Of a stretch of 64,000 nucleotides of DNA, positions 5,139 through 52,257 are shown in pieces; within the stretch, counting starts at the first letter, position 1, and each line of letters begins with the position of its first letter. The notes below the pieces were generated by a model. That model searched no databases, was not told the DNA's origin, and saw only the letters and a list, made by a program, of their open reading frames with translations. The DNA lies in assembly GCA_030407005.1 (NCBI GenBank), contig JAUDYN010000007.1:682001-746000 (forward strand), read 5' to 3'. The stretch comes from Desarmillaria ectypa. Lineage: Eukaryota > Basidiomycota > Agaricomycetes > Agaricales > Physalacriaceae. The position numbers and the translations under genes are program-made.

Positions 5139-8104
<2,966 letters not shown>

Positions 8105-14200: not shown

Positions 14201-16670
14201 GAGAGTTGCCGCCAAGCAGGAAGAAGTCAGAATCCCCTTTGATCCTGTCCGACTCGAGGGAGAGAAGGTCAGAGATGATGTCGCGGACGAGAAGCTCGCG
14301 CGACGTCATGGTTGAGGCGTTCTGACGAGCGAACTCTTCTTCCATGGTGGCAAAATCAACTTGGCCATCAGTGCTCTTCAACAGTGGTGTCCTCAGTACA
14401 CGAAAGGGATCAGGTAGGATGTAGCCTGGGAGGATTCCGGATATGTACTTCATCAGAGTTTCCTCATTAGGCGCGTCCCGACCTGTCATGGAGACAAAGG
14501 CTTCGGGGTTGCCGTCATGGCGGAAGCGTACGGCGGCATCGGACACTCCAAATGTGGATAGCAGTGTATGCCTGAGTATACCAAGGTCGACTGACACCTT
14601 CGAGCATGCGACAGGTTCGGAGAGTGCTGCTAATGGAGGAGGAACCTCTGCTTCGAAATGACGTTGAACAACAGGGACACTGTCGGTCATGCATCCAAGA
14701 CCGAACCGAGTCGCCAGTTTAATCCGAAGAGGTTTGCCAGCACTAGCGATGATAGGCCATTGGTGGACATACAATAAACACTAAAGCTTAAAGCCGCACC
14801 TATTCTTCGGTAAGTCCGCCATATAAACGATCGCAAATGGCCACTTTGAAGGGTGCAAGTGGTCTCTAAAACAAAGTTGTCGCTCAGTTGACTGTGACTG
14901 AATAGCAAACTACAGCTCCACATACCTTAGTAGATCGTGGAGCTGCGAAAGACCAACGCGAGGCCGGTCAGGCTGAGGAACTATGACGATACCAATGACT
15001 TCCTGCAGCGCGTTGTGCTCGATTGCAAAAGCCAGAGAAGCCTTTGATAAATGGTCAGCTACTAAATAGATTCACAAATCGATGCGGCCTACCTTGACAT
15101 GGTCTCTTGCCGCCGTCATAATGGCCTCCTCAATCTCGAAAGGTGAAATGACTTCCCCTCCCTTGTTGATAATCTCTTTTGAACGGCCAGTAATGAATAG
15201 GTAACCATCAGAATCCACATATCCCACATCTCCCGAATCAAACCATCCTTCACTCGAGAAAGCCGACGTATCGAGAGGCATGTTGATGTCCGGAGAGATT
15301 TCGTAGCCCTCAAATGTGGGCAGTCCACGAACCGACACCGCTCCAGTTTTCCCGGTTGGTAGCTCGCGCTCCAAATCATACGGATCACGGATCGATATGT
15401 ATGGACCGCATGCTATTCCAGAACATCCTGGACGTTCAAGTCGGTACGTCGTAGGCGGAGACGCGATTGGCATGCATCTAAATAAAGATCATGGTCATCA
15501 GAATGTGGGAAAAACAAATTGCAGTTAAAACTTACTCCGTCATCCCGTACGAAGGCAAAATAGTGGCTTTATTGAATCGACTCTGGAGTTCGACAGCGAG
15601 GGAGGGAAGTAGACCGCCTGCAGCATTGCAAATCATACGAATACTGATGTCGCGATCTGGTTCAATGTAATCGGGTTGTGACGTAAGGACAGCATGATGG
15701 ATGGTAGGCGCGGCGTAGTACCTTTGCCACTAGCGTCAACCAAGTAGACGAAGTAATGAAATATGACATACCAAGTTGCATGTAGCTGGGAAGCGAGATT
15801 CCAGAATGCGATCGCGTCAAAACCGGCGCACATGATTGCGCTTCCGCCAGAAAAAGCAGGGGCCCATAGATTTCGTACAATCCCACCGACATGGAAAAGT
15901 GGCATCATGTTTACTAGTTTGAAAGTTAGAACTATGGTAAGTGCATAGACAGAATACTCACAGTTGACGTCGCGCGGTTGGAGATCCCATGAATGAACGA
16001 CAGCCCAAGTACCCACAATCAAAGACCTTAAAGTATACGGTACAACCTTTTTCTTGCCACTAGTACCTGAAGTGTGGAGAACGAGCGACTGGTCATGAAG
16101 CCCGTGTGGCGTCGACGGAGGAGGAATGATCATGTTACCGCCCACCAAGGTCATATTGAACAATCCCGCGGGTCCGGTAGGATGTCCTTCAATGTAGATG
16201 ATCTCACAGCCGAGGGCATCTCGAAGAGCCAGGAGCTCCAAACGGTGTTCGGCCTCCTTCGTAGAAACGATTGCTTTGGCGTTCAAGCGATGCGCATCCT
16301 CTCGAAGTTCCGATGCCGTGCAGCTCGCATTGACTGGGGCAACGGTGTGGTAAGTAGCAAGGGAGAGAAGGGCGAGAGCGTTCTCGGGCCCGGTGGGAAG
16401 TGCAATCATAACTCTATCATTAGGGCCCAAAGGCGACCGGGATGGGGAGTGGGGAAGCGCAAAGTTTTTGACAAAAGAGTGGAGGATGTCATGATTTAAT
16501 GATGGCCGAGAGGCGTCTGGTGAATGAATGGCAGGTGCTGGTGTCGAGCAGAGACAGTCGAGCAGCGTATGGACCCGTCCTGAGCTGACAACACGTTCAT
16601 CAATCAGGTCTCCAAGAGAGACACCTGACGAGGGAGTGAGGCCCCGTAAGAAGGAAAGTGGGATGGACAT
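11231..16670 (-). CDS. NRPS-like A-T protein with membrane segments and three beta-helix modules (Pls-type)
   Basis: This is a single-module, condensation-domain-free NRPS-like enzyme of roughly 1,500 residues. It starts MSIPLSFLRGL at 16670. The adenylation domain shows LVLHTSGTSGKKKVVPYT (A3), MMPLFHVGG, YGMTE (A5), GWFDSGDVGYVDSDGYLFIT (A7), GRSKEIINKGGEVISPFEIE (A8) and PKNSAGKPLRIK (A10). The thiolation domain has SDFFLLGGNSLLLGKL, with Ser for the phosphopantetheine arm. After this come hydrophobic segments alternating with three hexapeptide (left-handed beta-helix) modules, at RLLGAHIGKNVHIAH, YRAMGAKVGRRIYWPG and LRALGAKIGKNCAIYVGG. It ends KERTEVR with TGA at 11231-11233. The same order, A-T then membrane-separated tandem acetyltransferase-like domains (TIGR02353-type terminus), defines bacterial epsilon-poly-L-lysine synthetase Pls. 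The substrate cannot be read by eye; isopeptide homopolymer synthesis is inference. Introns are canonical and the frame is intact. Confidence 0.85.
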
Positions 16671-19600
16671 GGTGTCAGAGGGCTTCTAGCACAAATCCGA
16701 CTCTGCGTCTCCTCAGGGGATGGGGAGGAAGAAGACCAGGCTTAAGTAGAATGCGTTGACTGGCGGTGCTTAAGAAGGAAGCCAGACGGAGCCAATCAAC
16801 AAAAGATAACTGTCGGAAGCACACGACGTGGAGTTTCACATCCAAGGATGTAAGCGACGGAAAACAGTCTCGAGCTAAAATGTGATAATATGGGAAACGA
16901 TTTTGCATCATAATTTGATAGACCCATGGAGCGAGCGAACGTATGTAATTCTAAGTTTGGCAATCGAATCGAAGAGCAGAATAATTTTCGTTCATGAGGA
17001 TCCGGAATTGCGGGGCCGGCAGATAGGCAAAAATAGTCCCATTCATGCAGATTTCTTTGATCTGTTATCGAAGGCGACCAGCATATCCTTACGATTTTTT
17101 CGTAGTAAAGCTCATTTGAGCCAAGCAAGCAAGCTCAAAGCGCCGCCAGGGTCGCAGTATACTACAGGCGCCTACACACCTCGCAGTCAGTGGAAACGAA
17201 GACGTGTTACTGGAAGATAGACGATACTTGCCTTTCTTTTCGTCATAGAAACTAATTGAGCCTGGTGCGTGGACCGTACCGGTTCGCCCGCAGGACAGAG
17301 CAACGGACGCATGGAAAAGAAGTTCGACTGACAACTTTGATGGCAATCCAGTTCAAGGGATGATAACAAATATACACAAATACCGGCGTTCCATTATGCG
17401 TGTCGTCAAGTCGCCTGCAAGTGTCGCCGCTATGCCCCGAAAATGCCGAAGAAAAAGCATCGCTGGCTGTCAACGGCGGCTGAAGCATAGGCTTGGCATT
17501 CCAGATCTTGGCGCACTGATATCGTTGAGGTACCAATTTCAATCCAGAATTTCAACTGGATTGGAATTCCAGTGGACGTGAACTGCCTCATACAGGAGAG
17601 ATCGTGCTCTTTCCGACTCTGCCAGTCAGTTTGATTTGGATTTTTATCCTTATCACACGGAAAACGCGAGCCTGCAACTCTTAGTCCCATATTTTGGGGT
17701 CGTATGTCATGGCCATTTAGGGTTCATGCCGCGTTCTTCTCGGGAAACATTGTATTGAATGAGCCGGGTCGTCTGGTCTCCAATAAATCCATTATCTGTC
17801 GGGCGTCGGCATCTCACATACGTCAAATATGAGCGCCATTATGTAGGTACGGGTCCTATATTGTTATTACTAGCTTTGTACTCTCTAAATGCAGTGCCCT
17901 TCTTCGAATTCCCTGAATAACGATAGGAACACTGCATATAGCAAGGCCCTTTACTCATTCCCTTCGTAAGTCGGACCGTCCCGGATGAGAAAAGGACAGG
18001 CACACCAAGCATACGTTAGCGAGAAAACATCGAAGCACAGATACTTTTAATTCCGGTCTGTAGATATCAGAAAACTCAGAAAACACTGGATAGTCGAGGT
18101 TACTCGTCGTCATTATTGCGTGTCAGTTCTCAGGGAATGCTCTTGGTCTGAAGATCTTAGCGAGATCTTCCCGGCATTGATCGATCAATGTGATTTTGAA
18201 ATACACGGCGAAGTTGGAGTTGAACCCACTTAGTACCGTGCTAAGTATACCATAGACGAGAACTGTAGGAGCATTGCATGCCCCGGCGCCAATTGGAACT
18301 CCGGGAGTCGCCCAGATGTCGGGTCGGTTTTCAGTCGTGCCGTGTCGAGGTGAGAGCTCGCAATGTTTAAGGGGAGGGGTTCGGGTTTTGAGATGGCGGT
18401 CGGGACGTTTTCAAAGCGAGAGATCGGGCTTTGAGAGGGCGGGGTCAAGACAATTGATATAGTGCTCTCCGAAGATTGAAGCTCTGGACCTTTCGGGACG
18501 TTTGAAGTCAACAGTCCATTTACTGGTAGGATTTTGGGGTATCTTGAGATACTTTCATTTCCCTTTTGAGATGTTGCCGTCTAACATCGAATCTTAAATT
18601 CTACTGAGCGACGGTGACTAAGCGAACGGAGTCTATCGATAGCCTCGCCTCGCCCGTACGCGGAACTAAAGATATCTGAGTGTAGGAATTATGCAACTAC
18701 TACAATGTGTAGGTGCGCATAAGCCTTCTCCAGCTTGTTCTCTAACCCACTACCACATTTTGAGACCCTAGTCTGTAAAGTCAAAGTCGTGAAGTCTCAT
18801 AAATTTCGATATTCATTTCGGGCTGAGCATGTTAGAGTTCATTTCTCCGGCTTCCAACTTAATTAGTCTTGATGTGTTCCAAGAGGAAGGTAAGCACAGC
18901 TTCCCATTAGCATAAGCTCCGTCAGCCATTAGGATGGGTATCATAATGTCACTGACTCACCTTTTCGAAAGACCCGTGTTACAATGAGCGGCTCAAAAAT
19001 GTCTGCAATAAATGTCCCGATCCCAGTGTATCGAACGTCGCGAACTTCAGGCCTCAAATTCCCAGAATTTCCGCTCTGATCCGTTGTCTGGACGTGCCCC
19101 GAACTCAGGATATCCAAAATATCGACTACAAACGTCCACAGTTTCAGTCTCATCCGTCTCGAGATCTAAACCGTTTCTCTCCTACAAGTCAAATTTCTCG
19201 GCGTCTCCGAAATAAGTGTCTGCCGCCTGACTCGGCCCTCCAATACCTGGCTGTTGTTCCTTGGGGTCAAGAGATCTGACGTTGTAACTCGAGTCTGCGC
19301 TGTCTTCGGAGAATAGAGCAGCCGCTGAGACGTTGAATCCTCAAAGTACGTATATTTTTGAAATTTGCTTTAAGTGTTGTCAAGTTGAGTTTTCGGGCTC
19401 GATCACGATTTCATCACGAAAAAAGTGTAGCCAGTGCCGAAGATACCGTTCAGTAAATATCCGGTTTGCATTAAGATGGTAGCAGGCATTTTGCGAAGGT
19501 CAGTCTTCAACACGGTGAGTTAGTGATGACAGTATGGTTCAACGGAGTCCCGGACGATCGAGCAGAAAATTCTATGACGGAGAACGAATATCGCGGTCAT

Positions 19601-30858: not shown

Positions 30859-33800
30859 ATGGCGTTTTCGTCATCTCAAAACGCTAGTGCCTATGAACCA
30901 CTCGATGACGGGTGCTATGATTCCAATGCCAGTTATGTACCCCCTTCATCCGACATCTATGGCGGCAAACGCAGCATCCTCTCAGCACATACAGATCCCT
31001 CTACACGCCCGACAACCTATAACCAGCTCATCGATTACCTCGGCATGCTCGCTGTCCAAGTTATCAATCCCACTGATCTCTCCATCGGGAAATCCATCGG
31101 CGTTGGGGCGACATTTCATGTCCAAGAAGGGACCTTGAATAACCATACTGTTCGTTCAACCCTGGTTGCGGTCAAAACGCCTCGCAAGAGCGTACATAAA
31201 GATACCTTCATCCTTAACTCCCTCATCCGGGAGGTCCTCGACGAGATTCGAGTGATGTCGTATTTTTCGTTGCACCCAAACGTGCTTTCGATCTTCGGCG
31301 TCTGTCTTCAGAAGAGTGGAGAGGAGAGGCTTTTACCGCGGCTCATTGTTGATCGTGCCGTTGGTTCCCTTGGATCATTGCTACGAAAATCATCTAGCAA
31401 CGGTGGTGATGGCATGCCTTGGGAGTTGAAGATGAAATTCAGCCTCGAAGTGGCGGCAGGTCTGGAGGCGTTGCATCAGATTGAAATCGTTCATGCAGAT
31501 GTTAAATCAGACAATGTTCTAATCTTCTACGATGCGAAGAATTGGGACGTTCCGACTGTGCCTCAGCTATGTGCCAGGGTGTCGGACTTTGGCTTCTGTG
31601 TACCGGACACGTCGTCGAGAGCTGCATACGCTGCATCGGGAGGTACGCTTCGTTTCAGAGCGCCAGAGGCACTGGCGGAGGCACCGCCTTCTTTGAGGCA
31701 GTACGCGAATCGGCCAGAAAGGGATGTGTATTCCTATGGAGTATTTCTTTGGGAGATTTTCAATGACGGAAATACGCCATTTGTGGGCGTAGGCGATGCG
31801 GATGTAGCGGCTCTGCAGTTGGGGACAGAGGACGGCGCTGCTAAGCACCTTATTACCACTTTTCGTGGAAAGAACGATGGCTTAATGATAGGTCCTCTAG
31901 GTGCTATCAATGGGGCAGTCCAGAGAGACCCTCAGAGGAGAAGCAAGTGGCAAGAAATCTTCGATATCATTTGTGCGTCGAGTGACATTCGATGTTTGTC
32001 TCCGGATCCCAACAGATCATTTGTTGATGTAAGACTAGAGCTTTTCATGCCCGTCCTGCATGTGGCTTATGCGTCCCTAGTATTTCACTCAATCGTGGTG
32101 TCGTCAGCGAGAAATATCCTGGAACATATTCCAGTCTCAAGGATTATGGTTACCAACCATTCCGATACCGTCTACAGTACGTGCCCCTTTGCTCATGCTT
32201 TCATTACTAACCAATAGTTTATGCAGTCTTCTGATGATAGTGCCTATTCTGACGTTGTCCTTCGGGAGTTGGAAAACTCCATACAATCGAGACCTTCCGA
32301 CTGGATTACCACGGTCAGACTCGCCCTTCACTATTTCATGAGTCGCGACTTCGGCGTCATGGAAAGCTTGCTGCGACGTTTTGTCGAAAGCGATATCGTC
32401 GAGCTCGGTGAATATGGGAGTCCCCTCCTCCACCTGGCTGTTCGCGTGGACGCTGTCGATGTTATGCGCGCGCTGCTCGTCAAAGGAGTCGATGTTCATG
32501 CCGCTGATATCATAGAGGATCAGACGCCGTTACATGCAATTCGCTCTGCCGAAGCTGCACGGGCATTAATCGAGTTCGGAGCGAACGTAAACGCGTTGAA
32601 ACGCTCTACTCCTCTCCATTCATGTATATCTGCTGACATAGCTGAAGTCTTGTTACAAAACGGCGCCGACGTCAACGCCCCCGACAGTTATCACCGTTCC
32701 CCAGCTCTACATACTGCTCGATCTGCCGGCATCGTTCGGGTTCTCCTGAAGTATGGTGCGGATCCATTGAGTAAGGATCGATTCGGAGATACAGCTCTGC
32801 ACCGCGCCGTTTCTGACGAAGTGGCTCAGTGTCTAATGGAGACCTGTCCTGAACTTATCTACGTCAAAGGCCAGCTTGATGGCACACCCCTTCATCGTCG
32901 TGTGGCGGATTGGTCTGCAGAGACCATACGAATGGCGATTCGTCTGGGTGCAGATGTAGATGCGCCCAATTCTGATGGAGATACTGCCCTCCTCAGGTCG
33001 CATCAGTTCACCGGTGTCCTGTCTGACGTGGAGGTCGTGCGTACCCTCATCGAGGCAGGAGCCAAAGTGCCGTTACCCAAGGGCGACTTCCTTTTGGCAA
33101 CACCGTTGCACGAAACTGTTTCGCCGCCTTTAATGGAATATCTACTAGGACATGGATTTCAGCCGTATGTTAATATCAGGCAGGAAGTAAATGAGCAGAC
33201 TCCGTTACACGTTGTAGCCGCTCGCGACATGGCGCTTCATAAATCATGGACTGTTCGCCACGCCAAGGAAGAACGGAGGGGCGGTGAGCCTGCATCTTCA
33301 TCTACGCAGTACGGCGGGATAGCACATCTCCTCGAGCAGTCGTCCTCGATTCCATCTGTGGACTTGATGAAAGTGCTCCTTAAATATGGCGCTGACCCAA
33401 ACATCGGTGATGATGAGGGAGACACGCCCCTTCATTTTGTTGCGCGAAACTTTGTTGGTCATCCTGGTCACCTGGAGAATCTCAATCTTATTCGTCTTCT
33501 ATTGGAAGCAGGTGCAGACATCAGCGCACGGAACGCTGCAGGCGAGACACCTCTCCATTGTGCTGCTCGCGCTGAGACCGTCTTCGAGTTTCTTTGCTTG
33601 GGGGCAGATCCAACGCTTGCTGATCACCAGGGTGTAACCATCCTCCATAATGTGTGGCGCTTCACTGGAGAGTGCGAACGCGTAGTTAAAGCTCTTACTG
33701 AGCATGGCGCAGATGTTGATGCTGCAGATAACCGAGGGTCCAGACCGTTGCACTATGCGTGTCGCGGCTACGAGAAGGGTAGCCTAGGGTTATCGCAGGT

Positions 33801-34062
33801 CAAGCGCTGGGCTCAGAGTACGTGCTTTCATCAAGGGACCCCTCCTTTAGAGCCTACTATCTACGCTGCATTCGAGAATGCTCTCCCTACCGTCAGGGCT
33901 CTGTTGGATTGTCGTGCTGATATCCACGCGCAGAGTAAAGCCGGGGAGACGGCTGTGAGGGTGGCGTCGAGGCATCCCTTTGGACGGGAGGTGTTTAGGC
34001 TTTTTTGTGAGAGGGGAGCGGACGTAAATGAGGTTCCGAGGCCCTGGTGGAATTTTGACTGA
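30859..34062 (+). CDS. Protein kinase-ankyrin repeat fusion (RIPK4-like layout)
   Basis: One gene spans what look like two open frames. Exon 1 (30859-32028) encodes a tyrosine-kinase-like domain: glycine loop SIGVGATFHV, VAVK lysine, catalytic loop VHADVKSDNVLI, VSDFGF, FRAPEAL and DVYSYGVFLWEIF. Intron 32029-32080 (GTAAGA...CTAG) leads to a 32-codon exon. Intron 32177-32226 (GTACGT, CTAAC branch-like, TGCAG) then joins in phase to exon 3. Exon 3 encodes about ten or more ankyrin repeats (GSPLLHLAV, TPLHAIRS, TALHRAVSDE, TPLHFVARN, TPLHCAARAE, RPLHYACRG). The fused product is about 1,033 residues. The HRD Arg is replaced by Ala (HAD), but the catalytic Asp, Asn and DFG are present, so kinase activity is plausible. 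Reading it as two genes would leave the kinase with an odd tail and give the ankyrin part an ATG inside the acceptor region. Substrate and trigger are unknown. Confidence 0.82.
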
Positions 34063-34282
34063 GCGGGGACTGCATCGGAGGAAGAGCTTGTACATATACA
34101 TGAACTGATAGGCTCTGATACCTGATTCACCACCCGACATCACACTATCTACTATTCTATAATATACGTCACATCCTTCGATTAGATTTCCCGAAACAGA
34201 GGGCGTCGCCATACTCAGAAGATTTCTTTTCTCTACACTCGCCTCTTCTTCTCCTCGCAAATCAGCACAATGAACGAGTAAT

Positions 34283-35661
34283 TCAACACGACATGAGATA
34301 AACCTTGAACCCGTCCATCATCTCCTCCAGAGGACATAAAACTTCCTCGTAGAAATCTTTCCTGACCTCTTCCATCTTCTTACAGGCTTGCGTACTCTTT
34401 GTAAGGCACGTCATGACCGCACTTGCATACTTCGAGCCCATCTTGGTGCTCAGCCGATGAGCACAGTCTAGCAAGCACTTATGATTGTCTTCTTTAATCC
34501 AAGCGCCGGCGTCGCCAGAGAAAAAAGCACCCTCGACGTCTTCCCAAAGCCGGTCTCGATGAGCAGAGTCCTAAGGCTATACGTATCATGCCTGATATCA
34601 AACATGACGACATTGTTATCGTTTCCATCCTGTCGCTCAGGATGATGATACAGACTGTGAATAGGATCTGTCACCAGACAGCAATCTGAAACCAAGGCAT
34701 CCTGAGAATGAGCAGTTGTGAAGCCAACGAGGTATGCTGAACGGATTTCAGCGTCCCCTTTCCCTCCCTTCTCCCCTCTCCTCCCCTCCCCTCGTCGATA
34801 CAAGCACTGCAAATGGATTTATGCACCCAATCAGCCGCATGAATCTCCATCACTGGTGTAGTGATCTCTACTGCAATTCGAAAACGATCTTCGAGCGCCA
34901 TCGAAATGTCATTGTCCAGAGCGTAGGCAAGTATGGGAAGACGAGCCGGATTGACGATCCCTGGGCTCAGGGTTGGAATTTTGTAGACGAGGAAATGTTC
35001 ACTTCTATGTCACACAGTAAAACTGAGGCATGAGAGACGGTGCATAGAAGGAAGATCCGGTGAACGGAATGTCACAGCCATCTTTATGAGCGCGTCGGAG
35101 CGGGGTCCATGTTCCTCTAAGTAAACTGGACTTGACTCGTATTGGGCAAGCACACAATTGGTAAGAATAGGTTTGACAGCAGGTATCAGCGTAGAGACTG
35201 GGATATGGTAGGTTTGTAGATCCTGGCCGCCGTGGATTCGTCTTGCCAGCGCCAATGCGCCGATCAGCGGTTGATCGCCTGTCTGAGATAGGTGCTCGTA
35301 CAAAGAATACAAATTTTTGATAGCTAGAACAGTCAGCAATAGACTGTACGTGAATATCATCGACCCAACCTCTTGCTCCCATGTCCTAAGTTGCGAAAGC
35401 AAATCGTCGACTCGCCTTTTCTTCCACCCGATCCAAGTCAGTTTTGTCCTGACGAGGCTGATGTCTGGAGGTAGCCTTTCCCTTAGATCATACAGTATGT
35501 CCCCAACCTTTTGCAAGGATTGACGAAAAACTCGCTTGGCATCTTTGGGAAGACCTCACTCTGCGTTGCTGAGATATTCGCGGAACATCTCCAACCGAAT
35601 CTCCACGCACTCTAAGCGATGCTGCATGGACTCGAATGGTTTACCTACTGGCAGTTATCAT
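34283..35661 (-). pseudogene. Decayed tandem copy of the helical-bundle/pseudokinase gene
   Basis: This is a paralogue of the intact gene at 37766-39295, matching it nearly end to end: FREYL...SLQKVGDILYDLRE, LALARRIH, MALEDRFRIA, IRSAYLVGF, MGSKYA, and a VLCPL...FKV...SC end. It is broken at least four times. TGA codons lie at 35556-35558 and 35010-35012, with homologous sequence continuing in the same frame after each. There are frame changes near 34805, in the segment after VHKSICS, and near 34497, before CAHRLSTKMG. The first coding exon after the start is also deleted relative to the intact copy: the MITAS start is followed almost at once by the HRLECVE helix. No set of normal introns removes these breaks. 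It lies tail-to-tail with the kinase-ankyrin gene. Confidence 0.85.
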
Positions 35662-36110
35662 AGAGCACAGCGCTTGAAGGTGGGAGCCACAGATCACGAG
35701 AGACCAGAACCATGCCGAGGCTAACCTGGTGTCGAGCAAGACGACAATTTGAAGCCATTACACTATATCTGCCGCGATGTCTACCGTCAATGGCAATACA
35801 TGTAACGTACCACACAATATCAATCGGAATGATTCTGCAAACCACTCTACAACGCCTACAATTAAGAAAAGGAGCACAAACATTGTAGCAAACGGCGCCT
35901 AATCAATCGCTCACGAATTATTCTGGAAGTGCACATATGCCTATAGGAACGCTGATGGGTTCGGAAGAAATGGCACCATCTGAAAAGCGCACATCTGAAG
36001 GAAACTACAATACATCAGTGAGTGCTATGACCAGCAGGAAGACCTCGGACACACCTGCTTTTGCTCCTCTTCTCAAGATTCGAAGCTACCGTGTCCATGA
36101 CGTCTGATTT
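35662..36110. repeat. Upstream flank shared with the intact paralogue (segmental duplication arm)
   Basis: Non-coding sequence here matches 39296-39730. Examples are the block ATCAATCGCTCACGAATTAT (near 35903 and 39534) and CAGCAGGAAGAC (36032 and 39659), in the same order. The duplicated unit therefore covers gene and promoter region, about 1.8 kb here and 1.9 kb in the other copy. Confidence 0.75.
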
Positions 36111-37765
36111 ATGATATGAAACATGATCAAAAGATAGGAGCGGACACATGACCTCGTTAGCAGTGGCAAGGAGAACTCTATTATATGCTTGCTAAGACAA
36201 CGACTGTTCCCGAAATCAATGAGAGGTTGTGTAAGGTGGTCAAGAGGTTGTTGTGATAAATTGTACCACAATGCTAATAGCGAGACCTTTAATTTCTGGG
36301 TTACAAACTCGTGAGGAGTTTTCCCATTGACTTTGTGTATTTATACTAGTTTCTACCTATTCTAGTAATTTCTAACCAGTCATTTTCTTGCTCAGCATAT
36401 CCCGACTAGTCTGACCGTGGTTCGGTGCAGAATCTCGTGAACCCGGTTCGAACCCGAACCGCACCTTCAGGTTCAGGTTCAGGTTCAGGTTCAGGTTCAG
36501 GTGTGGTGCAGGTTCGGGTTCGGTGCTGCCGTGCAGGTGCGGGCTCAGGGTTTATACAAGCTCGTATTTCTGCACCCGCAACAGATGTGTGTAGATTATT
36601 TCCGACACCAAGTCACTCCGGGATGTCTTCCCTGTTCTATCACTGGCTTCAGCCGTCTGCTACTCAGGATACCGACCTCACAAGCTCGGTAACCTGACAT
36701 CAACTGTATCTACAATCTCCTCGATTTTTGTGTTGCTGTGCTCCTCTTGTGAGTCGACATTCACTATGACCCTCTTGAGTCTTGACTAATCATTTGTAGA
36801 CCACTGTCCACCATGACAATATAATATATCCATATCCAAGTAGTATGAACCAAAATTGTGGTACCAGAATATCAGTTCTTCATCATTTTTGGGGACACAG
36901 TGCTGCTCATACAATTATCGTCACATGAAGTCCCTTTAAGGCTTCAGTACCCTCTTTTTAATCAGGAAGAAAATAGTGGGCGAAACTCCTGTCCTTGCAA
37001 GTATCTACGAGCATGCATAACATTTTATAATGGAGCTAAGTGAGGTAGCACTTCGAACATATCATGTTGTTGTCGCAAATTCTGCAGCTGTTATATTCCA
37101 CTTCCCCTGGCTCCTAGTTGTGCTTAACGTCAACAAGAATCTTCAATTCAAAAGATATCATAGCATATCACACCTCTTTCCACCACATTTCATCTAACTC
37201 CAGTGCCATACCACAGTACTTGATAGAGATATTTTACACTTGAGATCCATGGGCGACCAATTCTGCATCAATGCGGCCGCAAGTTATCACCACACGTGAC
37301 CGTTAATTTGCCTTCCTCGTCAGCTTGAAGCTCGTGGCCGGAGTGTAACATAAATACAGCCTTGTTCTCGGAAATTTGTTAGTAGTATTCAATTTTATGG
37401 TTTAAATTACGAGTATTATCGATTTAGATCGAGAAGGTAACGCGAGGAGAACATACTCAGTCGGGGCACAACATAGGTGAAACAACTGCGGCATATAGGT
37501 AAATACGGACGTAACTTATATGTGATTGAGATAAAGGGACGTGCTACTAAAATAGTAAGTAAGTAAACAATGAGATATGATAAGTACTTAGAGAAAGGTT
37601 GTGCGGAAAACCAAAAAAACAAAGCTTCAACCATAGGATATTAGTCATTGTTACCCGCGTTGTTTCTCGTGTTAGGCTAGAATAACCACTGTGCTAATCT
37701 CGCCTTGATCGCTTGCACTCCCATTCTATCCTGCCTAATAGTTATAAGCACGACAGATAGATAGG
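36111..37765. other. AT-rich spacer between duplicated units
   Basis: There is no recognisable gene in 1.65 kb. It holds a TTCAGG microsatellite inside an inverted repeat at 36448-36523. The rest is AT-rich with broken frames. Confidence 0.5.
36448..36523. repeat. Inverted repeat flanking six TTCAGG units
   Basis: Six perfect TTCAGG units occupy 36466-36501. The left arm CGAACCCGAACCGCACC ends at 36465. The right arm GGTGCAGGTTCGGGTTCGG (36505-36523) is its reverse complement with one inserted base. The whole could fold into a long GC-rich hairpin. The telomere repeat of these fungi is TTAGGG, so this is not telomeric. Confidence 0.8.
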
Positions 37766-39295
37766 TCAACACGAGACGGAACAAACCTTGAAGCCACCCG
37801 ATATCTGCCGCAAAGGACACAAAACATCCTCATAGAGCTTTTCCCTGAGCCTTCTCGTATCCTTCGGTTGCCCACTCAACACGAGGCACGTCATTGCCGC
37901 ATTGGCGTACTTCGAGCCCATCTTGTTACCCAACCGACGGGCGCACTCTTTCAAACGCTCATATTCCGTCTCTCCACGCTTCGGCTCTCCCAATACTGTA
38001 CGTGCCATCGAAAGTATCGCCTTGAGCGTCTGACCAAACCCGATCTCGATGAGCAGGGTCCCGAGATAATACAAATCATATCTAACGTCACCCTGTTCCA
38101 CGAAATCGTTTGGCGCTGGGAGCTTCTGAATACCCCAATATTGAAGGGGTGCAGGTTTGAGACCGATGAGGTATGCAGAGCTGATCTGAGCGTCGGTTTT
38201 TGCTCCCTTCTCTCCTCCCTTAGTTGACAGGAGCACGTTCTCGCTACAAATGGCTTGGTGCACCCAACCAACCGCATGCAGCTCCAGCACGGCCATGGTG
38301 ACCTCCGCTGCGATACGAAAGCGGTCTTCGAGTGCCATCCGGATGCCATCACTCAGAATGTTGGCAAGCGTTGGAACGGAGGCCTTCGTGTCGAGCTTCG
38401 GGCTCATGAGCGGGAGCTGATAGATGAGGAAATACATTCTACCATCATACTGCTTTGCAAAGCCGATGCAAGGGAGGAGCTGCTCTGGCATGAAAGGAAA
38501 ATCCGGCGCGTAGAAAATGGCTGCTGTCCTTTCGATGGCGTTCCTCGATGGGGAATCCTCAAGGTGGCAGTGGGCCTCCACGTACACCAAGTCTGTGTCG
38601 TTTATGGTGGCAAATGCGCGGTCCTTGATGGCGGGACCAACCCTTTTGAGAGCATAGGTTGGGATGAGGGGAGGTTGGAATTTCTCTGCGCGATTGTGAA
38701 TTCGTCTCGCCAATGCCAATGCGCTCGTCAAAGAGTGATCGTGCATCTTCAATGAATGTCCGTACATCGTCGATGAATGATGGTACATTCCCAACAGTTG
38801 TTGGTATAAAAGATCAACGGTTGTGATCTTCAGCAATACACCATAGGCGCGGATCGTCAAACCCGCTTCTTGCACCCATGTCCTGAGCTCGACGACCAAA
38901 TTCTTGATCCGCCTTTTCCTCGGCTCAATCCACTTCAGTCTACCCATGACGATATTCGGTGAAAGCTGCACCCTGAGCTCGAACAATAGGTCCTCGACCT
39001 TGTGCAAGGATTGTGGGAATGCCTTTTGTGCGCGAGACGAGAGAGTTGACTCTGCTCTCGTGAGATATTCACGGAAGACATCAAGTCGGGTTTGGACACA
39101 GTCCAAGCAACTTCCCACCGATTGTATCGTCTCGGATGTAGCACGGTGGTTTGAACACTTTGCATGGATGTCCCCAATTAATTTTCCAATTCTGTTAGCC
39201 ATGCTAAAGCTGTCCATGCAAAATATTGACATTCAGCGTTGTTACTTTTTCGACGGAAAACCTGCTCACCTACTGCCAGGTTGCTTGGGATCCAT
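37766..39295 (-). CDS. Helical-bundle (HeLo/4HB-like) plus pseudokinase protein, MLKL-like layout
   Basis: The gene has two coding exons: MDPKQPGSS (ATG at 39295), an intron of about 60 nt starting GTGAGC at 39269, then the main exon to TGA-equivalent stop at 37766. The product is about 489 residues. The N-terminal 170 or so are amphipathic and helix-rich (IGKLIGDIHAKC, LDCVQTRLDVFREYL, SLHKVEDLLFELRVQL, IKNLVVELRTWVQEA), as in the HeLo/MLKL four-helix-bundle class. The C-terminal half follows a kinase plan but without catalytic residues: VYVEAH at the beta-3 position, LELHAVGWVHQAICSENVLL in place of HRD...N, and SSAYLIGL in place of DFG. I infer a pseudokinase controlling a membrane-active helical bundle, as in MLKL. 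The family name and membrane activity are not proven. A dead tandem copy lies 2 kb away. Confidence 0.7.
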
Positions 39296-40792
39296 GATAG
39301 AAGAGAGGCGCTTGAAGGTAGGTACCGCAGATCACGAGAGGTTGACAGAGTGTCTAGGATAAACTGGTGGTGAAACAGACGATGTTTTGATGTCATTACA
39401 CTGTATCTGCCGCAACGTCCACCGTCAAGGTCGATACCACACAATTCAAAAAGGAATCTTTCTGCCGAACGCTCTCGATAGCATCTGCAGTTGCAAGAAA
39501 GAGAGCACAAACATTGTAGCAGAACAGCGCTTAATCAATCGCTCACGAATTATTCTGGACGTGTACGTATATCTGGCGCCTGCGGTTCCGGAAGAAATGG
39601 GGTTATCTCAAACGTGCTCATCTCAGGGAAATACGATGCGGTGATTAGTGCTTTGATCAGCAGGAAGACATCGGACGTACCTGTCTTCGCTCTTCTTTCA
39701 GAGATTCGCACCCTTCTTGACAAGCAGTGGTGTATGTTAGTGTTCAAGGCGAAATGTCGGTGGGGCGGCATTGGATTGTAGTACTGAACCAGATAGTCAC
39801 CGCAACGTAAATTCAGGTCCAAAGTATTTGCTGATAGAGTTCAATCTACCGACGGGTACGATACCACGTTGCACAGGAACCGCGCTGAAGTGATATACAC
39901 CAGGCTGCCATTGGATCTACGTTGATATGAAACACCGCCAAAAGATTACAGCAGACGGACTTCCTTGCTGTATTTTTAGGCACAGAAACTCATGGCTAAA
40001 TTCTACGAACGTCTTGTACACTTCTCATATGGTCCCGACCGTTCCCGAAATTGATAAGACGAAAAGACTGGTGCCACCACGTCATGCAAGGACGTAGCAT
40101 GTCGTATCAGAATACCGGAGACGCAACATAGGGCGTACGCGACCCGGAACTTTGCGAGTAAACCCAGGCTCTCCACGTTTAACTGGAAAGGAGAAAGACT
40201 CGAGTACAGTTCTAGCCCAGGTCCTCTGTCCAGATGAGATCAGTGCCCTCCGTTGGCCTGCGACAAGACTGCAGTGGTCGACGTTATGTATTCGGGATTA
40301 TTAATCGTGCGGATTCAAGGATATCGACAAGGTCTTGTTTGGATATTGTGCGGCAAGACTTGTAACAGGAACATGAAAGAGATCTGTGCTGCAAAGAACG
40401 AAGTCCTTCGCGACGGTATCTGTTCATTCGGCGGCGTGGCGTTCAGAGCCTTGTGCGACATTTAGTATCGTCCTCGACGATAGGAGAAGTAAAAGCGTCA
40501 GATATCTTTTAGACAATGTCACGATCCATCTCGATGGTAAGAAAACATGTAGTATGAACGCACCCTTGCGTTTCAGCCTCATCCTTATTTCTATTGCGGG
40601 CCCTGTTGGGTTATCTCTGAGAACTACAACTGAAATACTACAAGCTCAAACTGAGAACCATAAGCCCACAGTCCAGACAATTGCTGGAGATGGCTGGAAT
40701 TCCATGATTAGATCAATGGCATCATAAATCGGCTGGACAGACAGGTTCAGGCTAGCATTGAGCAGGGCCTGGATGTTAACAGACATGGTACG
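39296..40792. other. Promoter flank of the pseudokinase gene and unassigned sequence
   Basis: 39296-39730 is the second arm of the segmental duplication. Beyond it, short frames at 40253-40465 and 40386-40727 (plus) and 40646-40882 (minus) overlap. The minus frame reads quite protein-like (LEWPDGAIEFYRKLEPDYIA), and the plus frame may be a 5' exon of the next gene. I could not choose between them. Confidence 0.35.
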
Positions 40793-42268
40793 ATGCTGGT
40801 GAGCGGAGATTGCAATGTAGTCAGGCTCCAACTTCCGGTAGAACTCAATAGCTCCGTCAGGCCACTCGAGTCGAAGCATCAATGCATAACACTCACTTCC
40901 TACAGAATTACTGCGAATTCCTTTGGTGTGGATCGAGGTTCAACGTCGAGTGTTGTGTATCTTCCTCACGTATCGAGGACGAAGAACATCCGTAACATTA
41001 TCACACGCCGTGGCCTCGCGTTCTTCAACACCGGAACGGAAAGCTCAGACATCGCCGACCAGCCACAGACATCTTCCTTGACGTACGACTCCGAATTCTG
41101 GTTCTATTCGTTTAATTCCTCTTCATTTCGAACTCGTTTGTTGGTCTGGATTACCGCCGTCAAGCATGACTTCGTCTCCTCTGGATCGGTTTCGTCCCTT
41201 CGTTTGGAACCCGGTTCATTTGAGCTATGCACCTTCGTATACGTAACACCCTTCATGGATCGGTTTGCTGGTGGACGACCCATTGGTTTTCATGAGGATT
41301 CAGACATATACAACACAAAGTGCCGTTCACAGGTCCTGGATGAAGTCCGTTTCTCCGGACTCGTTGAAGACGTTTACCTTTTGTATGTAATCTCAAAACA
41401 TTTGTCGTGTTTCTTCCTCACAACGCATTTTACAGAATTACGGTTCTGTATCCGATATACCGCCCCAAACAGATCAGTATTATCCTGGGAAGGCATTTTG
41501 TCTACGACCGATAGGTCATCGTCGCTTTGATCTTCTCTCTACTATGAAGAACGCAGACGTCTGTCTAGTTGGACATTTAGTTCGGACGATCCGCAGATCT
41601 CTCTGACTTTGAACCGTTCAGACCGACTCGGAGTTGGTCCTCACGGGGCCGCACTACGCACGAGCTTCCCAGCTCTGAGGGTTCTCCCATCCTGGCAGTT
41701 GTATGTTGTATGGCAAGTGAATAAACCACTGCAAGTCTTCGGTCAAGATCATACGAGAAACCCCGGGTATTGTTTCACGAAGCCATGTGTATCATGAGGT
41801 ATCATTTCTCATCGTACGACCTCTCTACGTGCCGATTTCGAGATTGGGATCGCTGCGCAGATGCTCAAATCTTTGTTTAGTTCTAGTGTTGCTCAAGATG
41901 GCATACCTATGCGAGATCCACAGGATCAGACAGAAGAGACGTGTCATCCAAGTACGTATTCTTTTCTTTCTTGGTTTCAAGTCCATGAATCTCGAACAGT
42001 TCAAGCCACATACTACGTCAAGGTTGGACCCGCGATTTATTACCTTATGAGCCAGTGAAAGATATTGATAACACTTCGGGTTAATGGAAGGGAACGTCGC
42101 CCAGCTCCGACACGTAGCCCTCAGTTTACTGACCGAAGAGAATTACCCATTATCGAGTACAACGGGATATGTCTTGTCGCCAGACTGCTGATGAGACGAT
42201 TTCTTCATAGACTCGGTCCACCACCTCGCTTCCAGCCGCCTCAGATTATCCATCAACGTAACAGCTAG
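40793..42268 (+). CDS. Unrecognised multi-exon candidate gene
   Basis: Several plus-strand frames look like exons but match no family I know. The frame 40793-41393 runs without a stop and can be spliced (donor GTATGT, acceptor TTACAG) into VLYPIYRPKQISIILGRHFV. The last part is better supported: the frame 41861-42058 (MLKSLFSSSVAQDGIPMRDP to VKVGPAIYYLMS) joins in phase through a 36-nt intron (GTGAAA...GGAAG) to ERRPAPTRSPQFTDRRELPI and ends HQRNS with TAG at 42266-42268. The middle exons at about 41520-41860 could not be chained with confidence. Start, exon count and even unity of the gene are open, and a decayed gene is possible. Confidence 0.3.
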
Positions 42269-47235: not shown

Positions 47236-48432
47236 ATGGAAACTTCCACTATCGTTTATGCTGGCCTCGCAGCAGTCTTTGGGGTGGCAATAGCTGTACG
47301 TGTTCCTGCTCTGCAATATCCCTCAGCGAGATGAAATCCCGTTTCATCCTTGTTCTTCGAGCCACGGGTCTTTGTACGCCGTGGTGAGGACGAAAACATC
47401 TGGGTCAGGGTATAATAACCCTGTCTGATTCATTTCCTTCCTCCTCATTACGTTCCTACTTCTTGGGTTAACCGTGTTATTAGTTATATCTCACACTCAT
47501 TGCATGGTCACCTGACCCAATAGTCACCCGCGACTCTGAAAAGAAATACCTCTCACACAAGCATCTCACTGATGCCCAGCCCTTGTCACTTCTCTCCGAC
47601 CCGAGCACCGTCGACCTTAGTGTCGTCATCCCCGCCTACAACGAGACCGAACGCCTTCCCATCATGCTCGCCTCTGCTATCGACCACCTCAGCAAAACGA
47701 CGCACTCATTTGAGGTACTCATCGTCGACGATGGCTCCTCTGACGACACCTCTGCCGCGTCTCTCAGTCTCGCGGGGAAGTACCCAAAGTGCGATATCCG
47801 CGTAGTGACGCTGGAGAAGAACCTGGGCAAGGGCGGTGCGGTGCGCCATGGGATGCTCTATGCGAGTGGGGAGAGGCTCTTGATGGTCGATGCGGACGGA
47901 GCAAGCCGGTTTAATGACTTGGAGCTCCTCTGGCGCGCTATGGACGATATCGCTCCAGACTGCGGTGCAGGAGTCGTCGTCGGGAGTCGTGCACATCTTG
48001 TCAGAACGGACGCGGTCGTGAAGGTACGCACGCATCCGTCCCTTCCCCTTTACCGTGACTTAGGATATCCATCAGCGTTCGCTACTCCGGAACATCCTCA
48101 TGTACGGGCTGCACACTATCCTGCGAATCGTAGGCGTCGGACACATCCGTGATACTCAATGCGGGTTCAAGCTGTTCTCGCGTTCTGCGGCGCAGCAGAT
48201 ATTTCCTCACCAGCACCTACCTACGTGGATATTCGATGTCGAGCTCCTCCTACTTTCCAAGCAGCTCCGTATACCTGTCGCAGAAGTGCCTATCGACTGG
48301 CATGAGGTCCCAGGCAGCAAACTGAATGTTGTGACGGCGTCTTTGCAGATGTTGAGGGATTTACTGATTGTTAGGGCAAATCACTTGCTGGGGAGGTGGA
48401 AGGCGTCGTCAGATAAGGTTAAATTAGATTAA
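47236..48432 (+). CDS. ALG5: Dolichyl-phosphate beta-glucosyltransferase (Alg5)
   Basis: Alg5 transfers glucose from UDP-glucose to dolichyl phosphate at the ER membrane, supplying the donor for the last steps of N-glycan precursor assembly. The ATG at 47236 starts METSTIVYAGLAAVFGVAIA, a membrane anchor. A long intron (donor GTGTTC, about 225 nt) joins in phase to TRDSEKKYLSHKHL. The GT-A glycosyltransferase family 2 core follows: LSVVIPAYNETERLPIML, VLIVDDGSSDDTS, NLGKGGAVRHGM and the DxD-like LLMVDADGASRF. The last exon begins RSLLRNILMYGLHTILR and contains DTQCGFKLFSR, FDVELLLLSKQL and VPIDWHEVPGSKLNV, all typical of Alg5. It ends SSDKVKLD with TAA at 48430-48432. The frame is intact. Confidence 0.93.
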
Positions 48433-50147: not shown

Positions 50148-52257
50148 TTAGGAGAAGATGCCTTTTAAATACTGCTTCAACCCATCTACTCCGCCTACGA
50201 GCGCGCCGATCATCCCATCCGGCCTGACTACGACAACCCAGTGGCGGTTGTTGTAGTGTTTGCACGCATAACCCTCTCCATCGGTGAGGACAAAGTCAGC
50301 GGAGGAACCATCAACGACAGGAGCAGCATTTTGGGGAGATATCACGACCGACTTGGTAGCACCGACTGGGGAGGCCTTTAAGAGGTCCAGGATTTCCTTT
50401 GCTTCCAGTTCAGCACCGGCGAAAATGAGGACCGTATGGTATGACGTGTGGAATATGTCGAAGAGACGCGTCTTCTCTCCCTGCGAAGACACCAGACCCG
50501 GAGCGTCAGGAGCACGGTCCCCAGCTCGTAAATCTCCACCCTCTCCCGACCGATACGGATCGACGCTCTCAGGTGTTCCCGCCTCATCTACGACTATTGG
50601 GCTTCCGCGGTAATTGACGCCGAACTGATACAGCTCGGGCCCTCTCTGCCACCCGTCATATGAAGCGGCTCCCGGTGTGAAGGTCTTGTTATGAAGCTCG
50701 GTGGTTTTGTTGAGCATAGCTGCGATGACCGGGATGCGTTCTTGCGAGTAGGTGTCTAGTAGAGTAGGTGCCGCCAATCCTTTATCGACGAGGGCGAGTT
50801 TCCATGCTAGGTTGATCTGTTGGCGGGTGGGTTATAGTAAAATTTGCTGAGGAGAAGTTTGGAGAGCTCTTTACCGAATCTTGGACGCCTGAGTTGAGGC
50901 CCTGTGCGCGCGTTAGGCATTCATCGATAATTAGTTCATTAAAAACAACATACCTGACCTCCCGTAGGACTATGAACATGGGCAGCGTCTATGCTCGTTG
51001 ATCATTAACGATATATTTAGAAGGGAAATGTCATACCTCCGGCTACAAAAGCTCTCCCTGAACCATACTTGTCCACCATCCGAATATTGGGCCTGTAGGA
51101 AACATAAGTATGCAAACATATTTGTGGCAGAAAATACTCCCCGAAAGTTGGACATCCATACGAGTTCGCCGAACTCGATGTCTGTTCGGCCAGAGATAGC
51201 ATAGAACTCTTTGAGAAATGCTTCACGTTTGGAAGCTACCGTTGTCGCGTCCAGCTGGTGCCCTGTGATGAAGAACTGGTATTTGTTTGCAGCCGGGTCC
51301 TCAGATGGCCGTATGGTCAGTCTATGAAAACAATGGGTAGACGGTTCGAACTTCCAAGTAATCCTCAGGGAACATACGCTTTGGTCGACATATCTCCGTA
51401 CACATGCCAGAACTTCCCATGATTGTCTAAATGGATGAAACGCTCGAGTTGGTTGCAAACTTACCTCGTCAAGTTGTGGCTTTATAATCTTGATGTCGCC
51501 AATGATCGTGTCCTCCCCTTGTCGCGTCTCGCCGAGGAACGTCAAGCCTAGTGTCTTGCGTACAACGCTACGGGCCCCCTCTGAGCCAACAAGCCATCGA
51601 GATTCGATGGTTTCTTCGACAGTTTGGCCGTCGCGGGTCTTAAGGACACGGGATACAACGCGGTCGACAGACTGTTCGAAGGATACCAGTTCGGTGCCCA
51701 GCTCGACTTGGCATCCATACTTTGCCAAGTGTTCTCGTAGCACCTCTTCGTGACGATCTTGGCCAAGCATGATAGGATCGCTCTGGGATAATTACCGCGT
51801 GTTAATTCGCGGGTCCATCGGGAAAGGAAAACACATACGTAAGGCTTCTCTGGGGTAGCTTCGCCTTTACGAACCATGCTCATGATCTTTGTCTCCCCAT
51901 TTGGGAGGTGATGGAAGACAGGATGGACAACGCCTCCTTTCTTCTGAATGTCGGGTAGGACGCCCATGAACTTGTAAAGCTCGAGAATCCTGGGCTGAAC
52001 CGAGATGCGCATAAGCCTAGGAAAGTGACAGACATACTGGCATGTATATGAACCTGAATACCACACCCTTTCTGTCCGATTTTATGTGTTTCACACTTGT
52101 CTATGATGCGAACGGACATGTCATTCTGCAGTAGAGCGAGAGCTAAGGTAAGACCTGATGGACCTGCTCCGGCCTATCGTGGGTCAAACGTAGCAGTCAG
52201 GTCGCGGGCAAGAAGGATTGATAGAAGACGTACAATGAGAACTGAGGTGTCTGTCAT
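50148..52257 (-). CDS. Flavoprotein aromatic monooxygenase (phenol hydroxylase type), with a mutated splice donor
   Basis: This is a class A FAD-dependent hydroxylase, NAD(P)H-driven, acting on an unknown, probably aromatic, substrate. It starts MTDTSVLI at 52257. The second exon supplies the dinucleotide-binding GAGPSGLTLALALLQ and the following acidic strand. Later exons give LGQDRHEEVLREHL, WLVGSEGARSVVRKTLGL, FWHVYGDMSTKA, the FAD ribityl motif GDAAHVHSPTGGQGLN (assembled across an intron) and NLAWKLALV. A thioredoxin-like C-terminal domain ends VGGVDGLKQYLKGIF with TAA at 50148-50150. All exons join cleanly except one. After WMSNFR the donor at 51141-51140 reads GG in the context GGGAGTAT, where GTGAGTAT would give perfect phase to PNIRMVDKYG. 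Retaining the intron leads to a stop about 50 codons later. The gene is therefore damaged, or there is a sequencing error. A related intact gene lies at 58025-60495. Confidence 0.85.

Follow-up and report, generated by a model that had tools for sequence, protein, structure and literature searches.

In vertebrates, cell death by the RIPK3-MLKL system couples an active kinase to a pseudokinase bearing a four-helix bundle joined through two connecting helices, with the kinase acting on the pseudokinase. The described fungal HeLo effectors depend on NLRs and amyloid templating and are commonly encoded beside these repeat-bearing activators (PMC7885112; PMC12881547). Clusters such as het-S/nwd2, hellf/fnt1 and hellp/pnt1 exemplify this arrangement, in which a repeat-bearing activator adjoins a HeLo-type effector (PMC7885112). 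MLKL_NTD-type bundles (BaMLKL) are frequent in basidiomycetes, both on NLRs and as single domains (PMC9815663), and a 2025 review mentions proteins in which a HELL domain is fused to a kinase or pseudokinase domain (PMC12881547). The present study characterised a 64-kb stretch of Desarmillaria ectypa DNA (the window), located on contig C30 of a 40.6 Mb genome of 32 contigs, in which a kinase-ankyrin gene lies tail-to-tail with a decayed and an intact gene of an MLKL-like family, the intact one predicted to combine a HeLo-type helical bundle with a pseudokinase. The activator neighbour is here a kinase-ankyrin gene and not an NLR. Linkage of the two gene families is likely to be recurrent in mushrooms, and the explanation that we favour, at a probability of roughly 0.45, is a kinase-controlled HeLo/MLKL-like death module forming a conserved two-gene unit of mushroom-forming fungi.

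The gene anatomy is firm, and the features concerned are listed below in window coordinates.

30859..34062, + strand: kinase-ankyrin gene, exons 30859-32028, 32081-32176 and 32218-34062, 1036 amino acids before the stop
31081..31812, + strand: protein kinase domain, residues 75-318, Pfam PF07714 (PK_Tyr_Ser-Thr), expect value (E) 8.9e-29
32218..34062, + strand: ankyrin-repeat exon, Pfam PF12796 (E 7.9e-55) and PF00023 (E 3.1e-53)
34286..35633, - strand: decayed B-type HeLo-pseudokinase gene (pseudogene), found by tblastn with P0010 in three pieces of 74-79% identity
37766..39295, - strand: intact A-type HeLo-pseudokinase (MLKL-like) gene, exons 39295-39270 and 39209-37766, 489 amino acids before the stop
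38846..39209, - strand: predicted N-terminal four-helix bundle of the intact gene, helices at residues 9-28, 35-64, 67-91 and 104-130 (AlphaFold2)
38696..38815, - strand: two predicted helices between bundle and pseudokinase, residues 141-158 and 167-180 (AlphaFold2)
37784..38668, - strand: pseudokinase domain, residues about 190-484

The kinase-ankyrin gene is made up of two apparent open reading frames (ORFs) joined by two GT-AG introns, leaving the frame open after splicing; an alternative acceptor at 32227, nine bases later, likewise keeps the frame. The intact A-type gene has a 60-base intron close to its start, and its product matches the deposited D. ectypa protein P0001 (100% identity over 97% of the query), a 485-amino-acid model that differs from the 489-amino-acid reading in the last few residues; a protein encoded in the window is deposited as Desarmillaria ectypa DFS33DRAFT_898446. 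Compared by tblastn with an intact relative, the decayed gene contains two in-frame stops and two frame changes, and its N-terminal exon was not recognised in the search with P0010. This confirms the observation, orientation included, of an earlier note on this DNA, which had described a decayed and an intact pseudokinase gene tail-to-tail with a kinase. A short array of GGTTCA-type hexamers occupies positions 36466-36502, between the broken and the intact MLKL-like genes.

In the window kinase, the glycine loop, VAVK, HADVKSDN, DFG and APE are all intact. Glycine loop, catalytic Lys, HxDxKxxN (which we take to be the Ser/Thr-type motif), DFG and APE are likewise present in 12/12 aligned rows, drawn from nine deposited proteins and three D. 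ectypa loci. Left out of this alignment were P0023-P0026, fragments with ankyrins only, and P0028, an incomplete model from A. mellea without the VAVK stretch. The homologues share the kinase and ankyrin layout, several being 1009-1041 amino acids long. A further motif, SNASY (window 30922-30936, + strand), lies at the N-terminus outside the kinase domain and recurs in 11 of the 12 rows, with a gap in P0032. With the Pfam matches to both parts in a single three-exon gene, the apparently active kinase with ankyrin repeats proposed at the outset is upheld, while the accompanying label 'RIPK-like' proved too specific by sequence. Since ankyrin structures swamped a profile that included the ankyrins, the comparison relied on a profile built from five kinase domains alone; among the best 60 of its 1082 matches to PDB sequences RIPK was absent, the best being EGFR (entry 9p9u), Mer/Tyro3/Axl and MAP3K9, then CSK, CSF1R, Eph, ITK and LRRK2. 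Ankyrins following a kinase are reminiscent of RIPK4 and ANKK1. A plausible candidate class is FslK, a lineage of fungal kinases that is akin to tyrosine kinases and has expanded in Agaricomycetes (PMC3937382): the window kinase looks active, has tyrosine kinases and MLKs as its nearest PDB neighbours and comes from Agaricomycetes, a likeness founded on PDB ranking and the description of FslK.

The intact A-type protein was modelled by AlphaFold2 (predicted local distance difference test, pLDDT, 81.7; predicted template modelling score, pTM, 0.86) as a four-helix bundle followed by two helices and a pseudokinase; the N-terminal bundle modelled alone gave a pTM of 0.72. The two linking helices are presumably placed like the MLKL brace, and the predicted layout (four-helix bundle, brace-like helices, pseudokinase) is that of MLKL, which the earlier label 'MLKL-like' fits. 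A profile of the pseudokinase family against PDB sequences ranked HRI first (E 6.6e-5) and MLKL second (E 0.004), MLKL making up 11 of the 60 listed rows. Searching PDB sequences with the single MLKL-like protein returned nothing useful (best E 0.56), and MLKL was absent among the 50 rows listed in the whole-model fold search. Because kinases took up the whole-model listings, the N-terminal part was given a model of its own; Foldseek with this bundle yielded zero matches at E 0.001 or better, and animal MLKL chains were absent from the VIA rows listed for the whole model and for the bundle. In the fold search the bundle resembled those of plant MLKL (AtMLKL2/3) and CC-R, a generic match. Pfam recorded no HeLo or SesA domain (PF14479, PF17107) in the intact window protein. 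Its relatives come near the cut-offs, with SesA at 25.8 bits in P0055 (cut-off 26.3) and HeLo at 16-17 bits in P0051, P0042 and P0052 (cut-off 23.2), and a precomputed domain table assigns SesA to P0055 and HeLo to P0019. An Asp in the HRD position was found in only one of 34 rows, P0045 from Lentinula raphanica.

These results also bear on a rather improbable alternative, namely a regulatory pair with no pore, in which the kinase would dock on the pseudokinase or be activated allosterically by it, and the helical domain would serve for oligomerisation rather than membrane killing. Pseudokinases often regulate kinases, the fold match of the bundle is generic, and the A-type N-terminus is weakly hydrophobic, its best 17-residue Kyte-Doolittle mean (0.28 in P0001) being the lowest of 14, with a maximum of 1.64 in P0042; the SesA/HeLo signal in relatives and the similarity of the bundle to plant MLKL and CC-R argue against it.

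Within D. ectypa, the MLKL-like family turned up in just two regions, one on C30 (the A-type gene and the broken B-type gene) and one on C1 (one intact gene and one fragment), and the kinase-ankyrin family occurs on C30, C1 and C27. Kinase and MLKL-like genes are convergent in both shared regions, at distances of 3.7 kb on C30 and 26 kb on C1. The C1 fragment, a C-terminal piece at C1:1045344-1045565 (- strand), lies 41 kb beyond the C1 kinase and is a second sign of family birth and decay. The C27 kinase-ankyrin gene (C27:3484811-3488035, + strand) has both exons open.

Beyond D. ectypa, contigs of equal size in base pairs were taken to be the same contig, so that pair spacing is known for D. 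ectypa only, and for Phlebia brevispora through gene numbers. The family lists are incomplete, the protein searches having scored the 7995-7999 candidates with most shared words. Seven combinations of species and type had both partners on record, and in six of them the kinase lay on one contig with the MLKL-like gene of its type: D. ectypa C30 and C1 (read directly), D. tabescens C30-type (1921874) and C1-type (983568), A. mellea (3174697) and P. brevispora (14876), where the two genes bear the consecutive numbers g3563 and g3564 and a second pseudokinase gene, P0053, is on a contig of different size. Co-occurrence in relatives was the check by which the earlier note proposed to stand or fall, and the idea survived it as far as it was run. 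Guyanagaster was not comparable, its C30-type kinase and C1-type pseudokinase being on different contigs. Kinase P0021 and B-type P0013, each sister to A. novae-zelandiae in its own tree, were not counted; their contigs of 5965 and 5968 bases are possibly a single piece. The kinase tree (support 95/96) groups Lentinula with the C30 type and leaves C1 outside, and the pseudokinase tree has the same placement (Shimodaira-Hasegawa-like approximate likelihood ratio test, SH-aLRT, 92, short of a star), as a joint duplication of both genes predicts.

Descent might explain the linkage by itself, had a chance ancestral neighbourhood been duplicated and kept in some lineages while the two genes served separate pathways. 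We consider this unlikely, if deserving of serious attention. The loci of D. ectypa and Armillaria have a common ancestry, so that their linkage does not count as independent evidence; within the 70 kb examined, the C27 kinase stands without an MLKL-like partner; the C1 partners are separated by other ORFs, one with a sub-cut-off SKN1/KRE6 match; and in A. novae-zelandiae, the exception among the seven cases, kinase and MLKL-like copies are on contigs of different size. Against descent alone, the consecutive gene numbers of P. brevispora come from another order, Polyporales (Desarmillaria belongs to Agaricales), and every D. ectypa MLKL-like member found lies in one of the two regions, each of which holds a kinase-ankyrin gene. 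A random site would be as close to one of the three kinases with p = 5.5e-4 and 3.8e-3 for the two regions, probabilities that are not independent because the C30 and C1 loci share ancestry.

The pseudokinase tree, built by a quick method from 36 members (P0056, P0057 and P0019 left out), resolves A-type, B-type and C1-type groups besides Lentinula, Mucidula, Athelia, Phlebia and others. The A-type comprises the intact window gene and eight relatives, and the B-type eight genes from other species or sources, some of them partial models. Over its main piece, the decayed gene has 74-82% identity to seven B-type proteins, compared with 35-41% to A-type proteins and 40% to its intact neighbour; being closer to the B-type of other species than to the gene beside it, it does not fit the recent duplication followed by decay that had been proposed, and that reading is rejected. 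A-type and B-type genes are found on equal-sized contigs in A. nabsnona, A. mellea, A. novae-zelandiae, A. borealis, A. solidipes, D. tabescens (its B-type counted from a 274-amino-acid model only) and one more source, while A. luteobubalina has the A-type alone listed. This co-occurrence across Armillaria and Desarmillaria indicates that A and B are an ancient pair whose B member was lost in D. ectypa, and the decayed gene is, by its sequence relationships, an old paralogue retained in other Armillaria. The A-type has a long stem in the tree (0.85) compared with that of the B-type (0.39). In Lentinula raphanica, P0017 and P0045 are on equal-sized contigs (49339), perhaps a separate tandem duplication.

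A difficulty for a kinase-driven switch comes from the activation loop. Alignment A3 leaves out P0005, P0050, P0056 and P0057. A column between the DFG and APE equivalents, Ser348 in C1-type P0039, holds Ser or Thr in 23 of 24 non-A rows (P0015, P0016 and P0019 left out of the count) and in 0/8 A-type rows including the window gene, which show seven other letters and one gap; the A-type rows are also without the HPER segment, and so without part of the loop. Should phosphorylation of this residue be the switch, it is closed to the A-type, a point against the simplest reading at the window locus itself, and the window A-type gene was not filed as MLKL because the conserved residue is absent. 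One A-type protein, P0007, has two Ser elsewhere in the activation loop.

A death module controlled by the kinase could nevertheless accommodate these types as follows. The first gene would supply an active kinase of Ser/Thr type whose ankyrin repeats serve as sensor or scaffold, and its neighbour or neighbours an effector whose HeLo/SesA-type four-helix bundle is restrained by a dead kinase domain. A signal sensed through the ankyrin repeats would activate the kinase, which would bind the pseudokinase and, in canonical members, phosphorylate its activation loop; the freed bundle would then attack the membrane and kill the cell, as in allorecognition or defence. In the window, the B effector, the canonical one, is broken; the A effector, which lacks part of the loop as well as its Ser/Thr, may need only docking to be switched, or may act as a regulator. 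A kinase-switched HeLo effector resembling RIPK3-MLKL is the economical model. A stronger version, in which a true kinase-to-pseudokinase necroptosis circuit travels as a movable gene pair, either related to RIPK3-MLKL or reinvented independently, with the A-type as a derived regulator, born of tandem duplication and without the phosphosite, is doubtful, though a real prospect.

The MLKL-like gene might also be the effector of some NLR or amyloid signal, the kinase being incidental. Known fungal HeLo effectors respond to NLRs via amyloid motifs (PMC7885112), and NLR/amyloid signalling has been proposed for Agaricomycetes (PMC9815663). The RHIM core pattern [VI]Q.G occurs in 4/36 pseudokinase family members and in 8/13 kinase proteins. 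The four are the C1-type proteins P0039, P0040, P0041 and P0054, which alone carry EIQ[ND]G in their last 20 residues, near the C-terminus, probably a chance occurrence within the last helix. In the kinases the pattern falls within the glycine-loop strand or the ankyrin repeats and forms no separate motif; it was therefore not counted as common to both proteins, and an amyloid-type motif shared by the pair was discarded. The pattern is absent from A- and B-type proteins, the aligned proteins stop soon after the pseudokinase with no space for an amyloid tail, and none of the six NACHT matches of the D. ectypa genome is on C30 or C1 (NB-ARC was not searched for). An NLR or amyloid signal as the true partner is very improbable.

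One further feature flanks the intact MLKL-like gene.

40649..40936, - strand: remnant related to a DUF6535 gene on C1, 45% identity over 66 amino acids to C1:966048-968426

The C1 gene (Pfam DUF6535, E 6.2e-36) stands beside the second MLKL-like gene, so that C30 and C1 both have a DUF6535 relative past the MLKL-like gene; the remnant itself has zero Pfam matches and is possibly part of an old duplicated block. With 63 matches of this family in the D. ectypa genome, a DUF6535 gene as third partner was set aside. Elsewhere the window encodes an AMP-binding enzyme (15639-16685, - strand), a family 2 glycosyltransferase (47484-48146, + strand) and a FAD-binding domain (50976-51791, - strand).

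Set against the described systems, the pair shares with RIPK3-MLKL an active kinase and a pseudokinase preceded by two connecting helices and, as predicted, a bundle of four; it differs in the ankyrins, in the lack of a convincing RHIM as judged by the short core pattern and of RIPK among those best 60 matches, in the partners being neighbouring genes and in the A-type having no loop Ser/Thr. For plant MLKLs and Pm13 we know of no neighbouring kinase-ankyrin gene. These plant proteins likewise unite an N-terminal bundle with a kinase-like domain (PMC10951266), AtMLKL2/3 being the fold match. Wheat Pm13 differs in retaining key kinase residues. From the fungal NLR/HeLo or HELL clusters the locus departs in having a kinase in place of the NLR, a pseudokinase in place of the amyloid tail and a basidiomycete host, and from BaMLKL, compared by description, in that the bundle is joined to a pseudokinase (PMC9815663). 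HELL-kinase and HELL-pseudokinase proteins have the same effector architecture, as seen in P0019 (HeLo and pseudokinase), but the available part of the review describes no partner kinase gene for them (PMC12881547). Among the papers that searches of the open-licence literature listed, none was on a kinase-ankyrin partner for HeLo/MLKL-like pseudokinase effectors. HELL-(pseudo)kinase fusions and MLKL-like bundles on NLRs are already known; the pairing of a kinase-ankyrin gene with a HeLo-pseudokinase is likely as linkage and proposed as mechanism.

Models of somatic incompatibility are based on ascomycete work (PMC8229728), which makes basidiomycete candidates useful. The recurrent pairing hints that fungi may have their own version of the necroptosis switch known from animals. 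If the favoured explanation is true, kinase-switched MLKL-type death exists outside animals, as a conserved kinase/pseudokinase pair in mushrooms, and these loci would offer a compact genetic system for learning how a pseudokinase restrains a killer bundle, since the loop Ser is defined and variants that lack it occur naturally.

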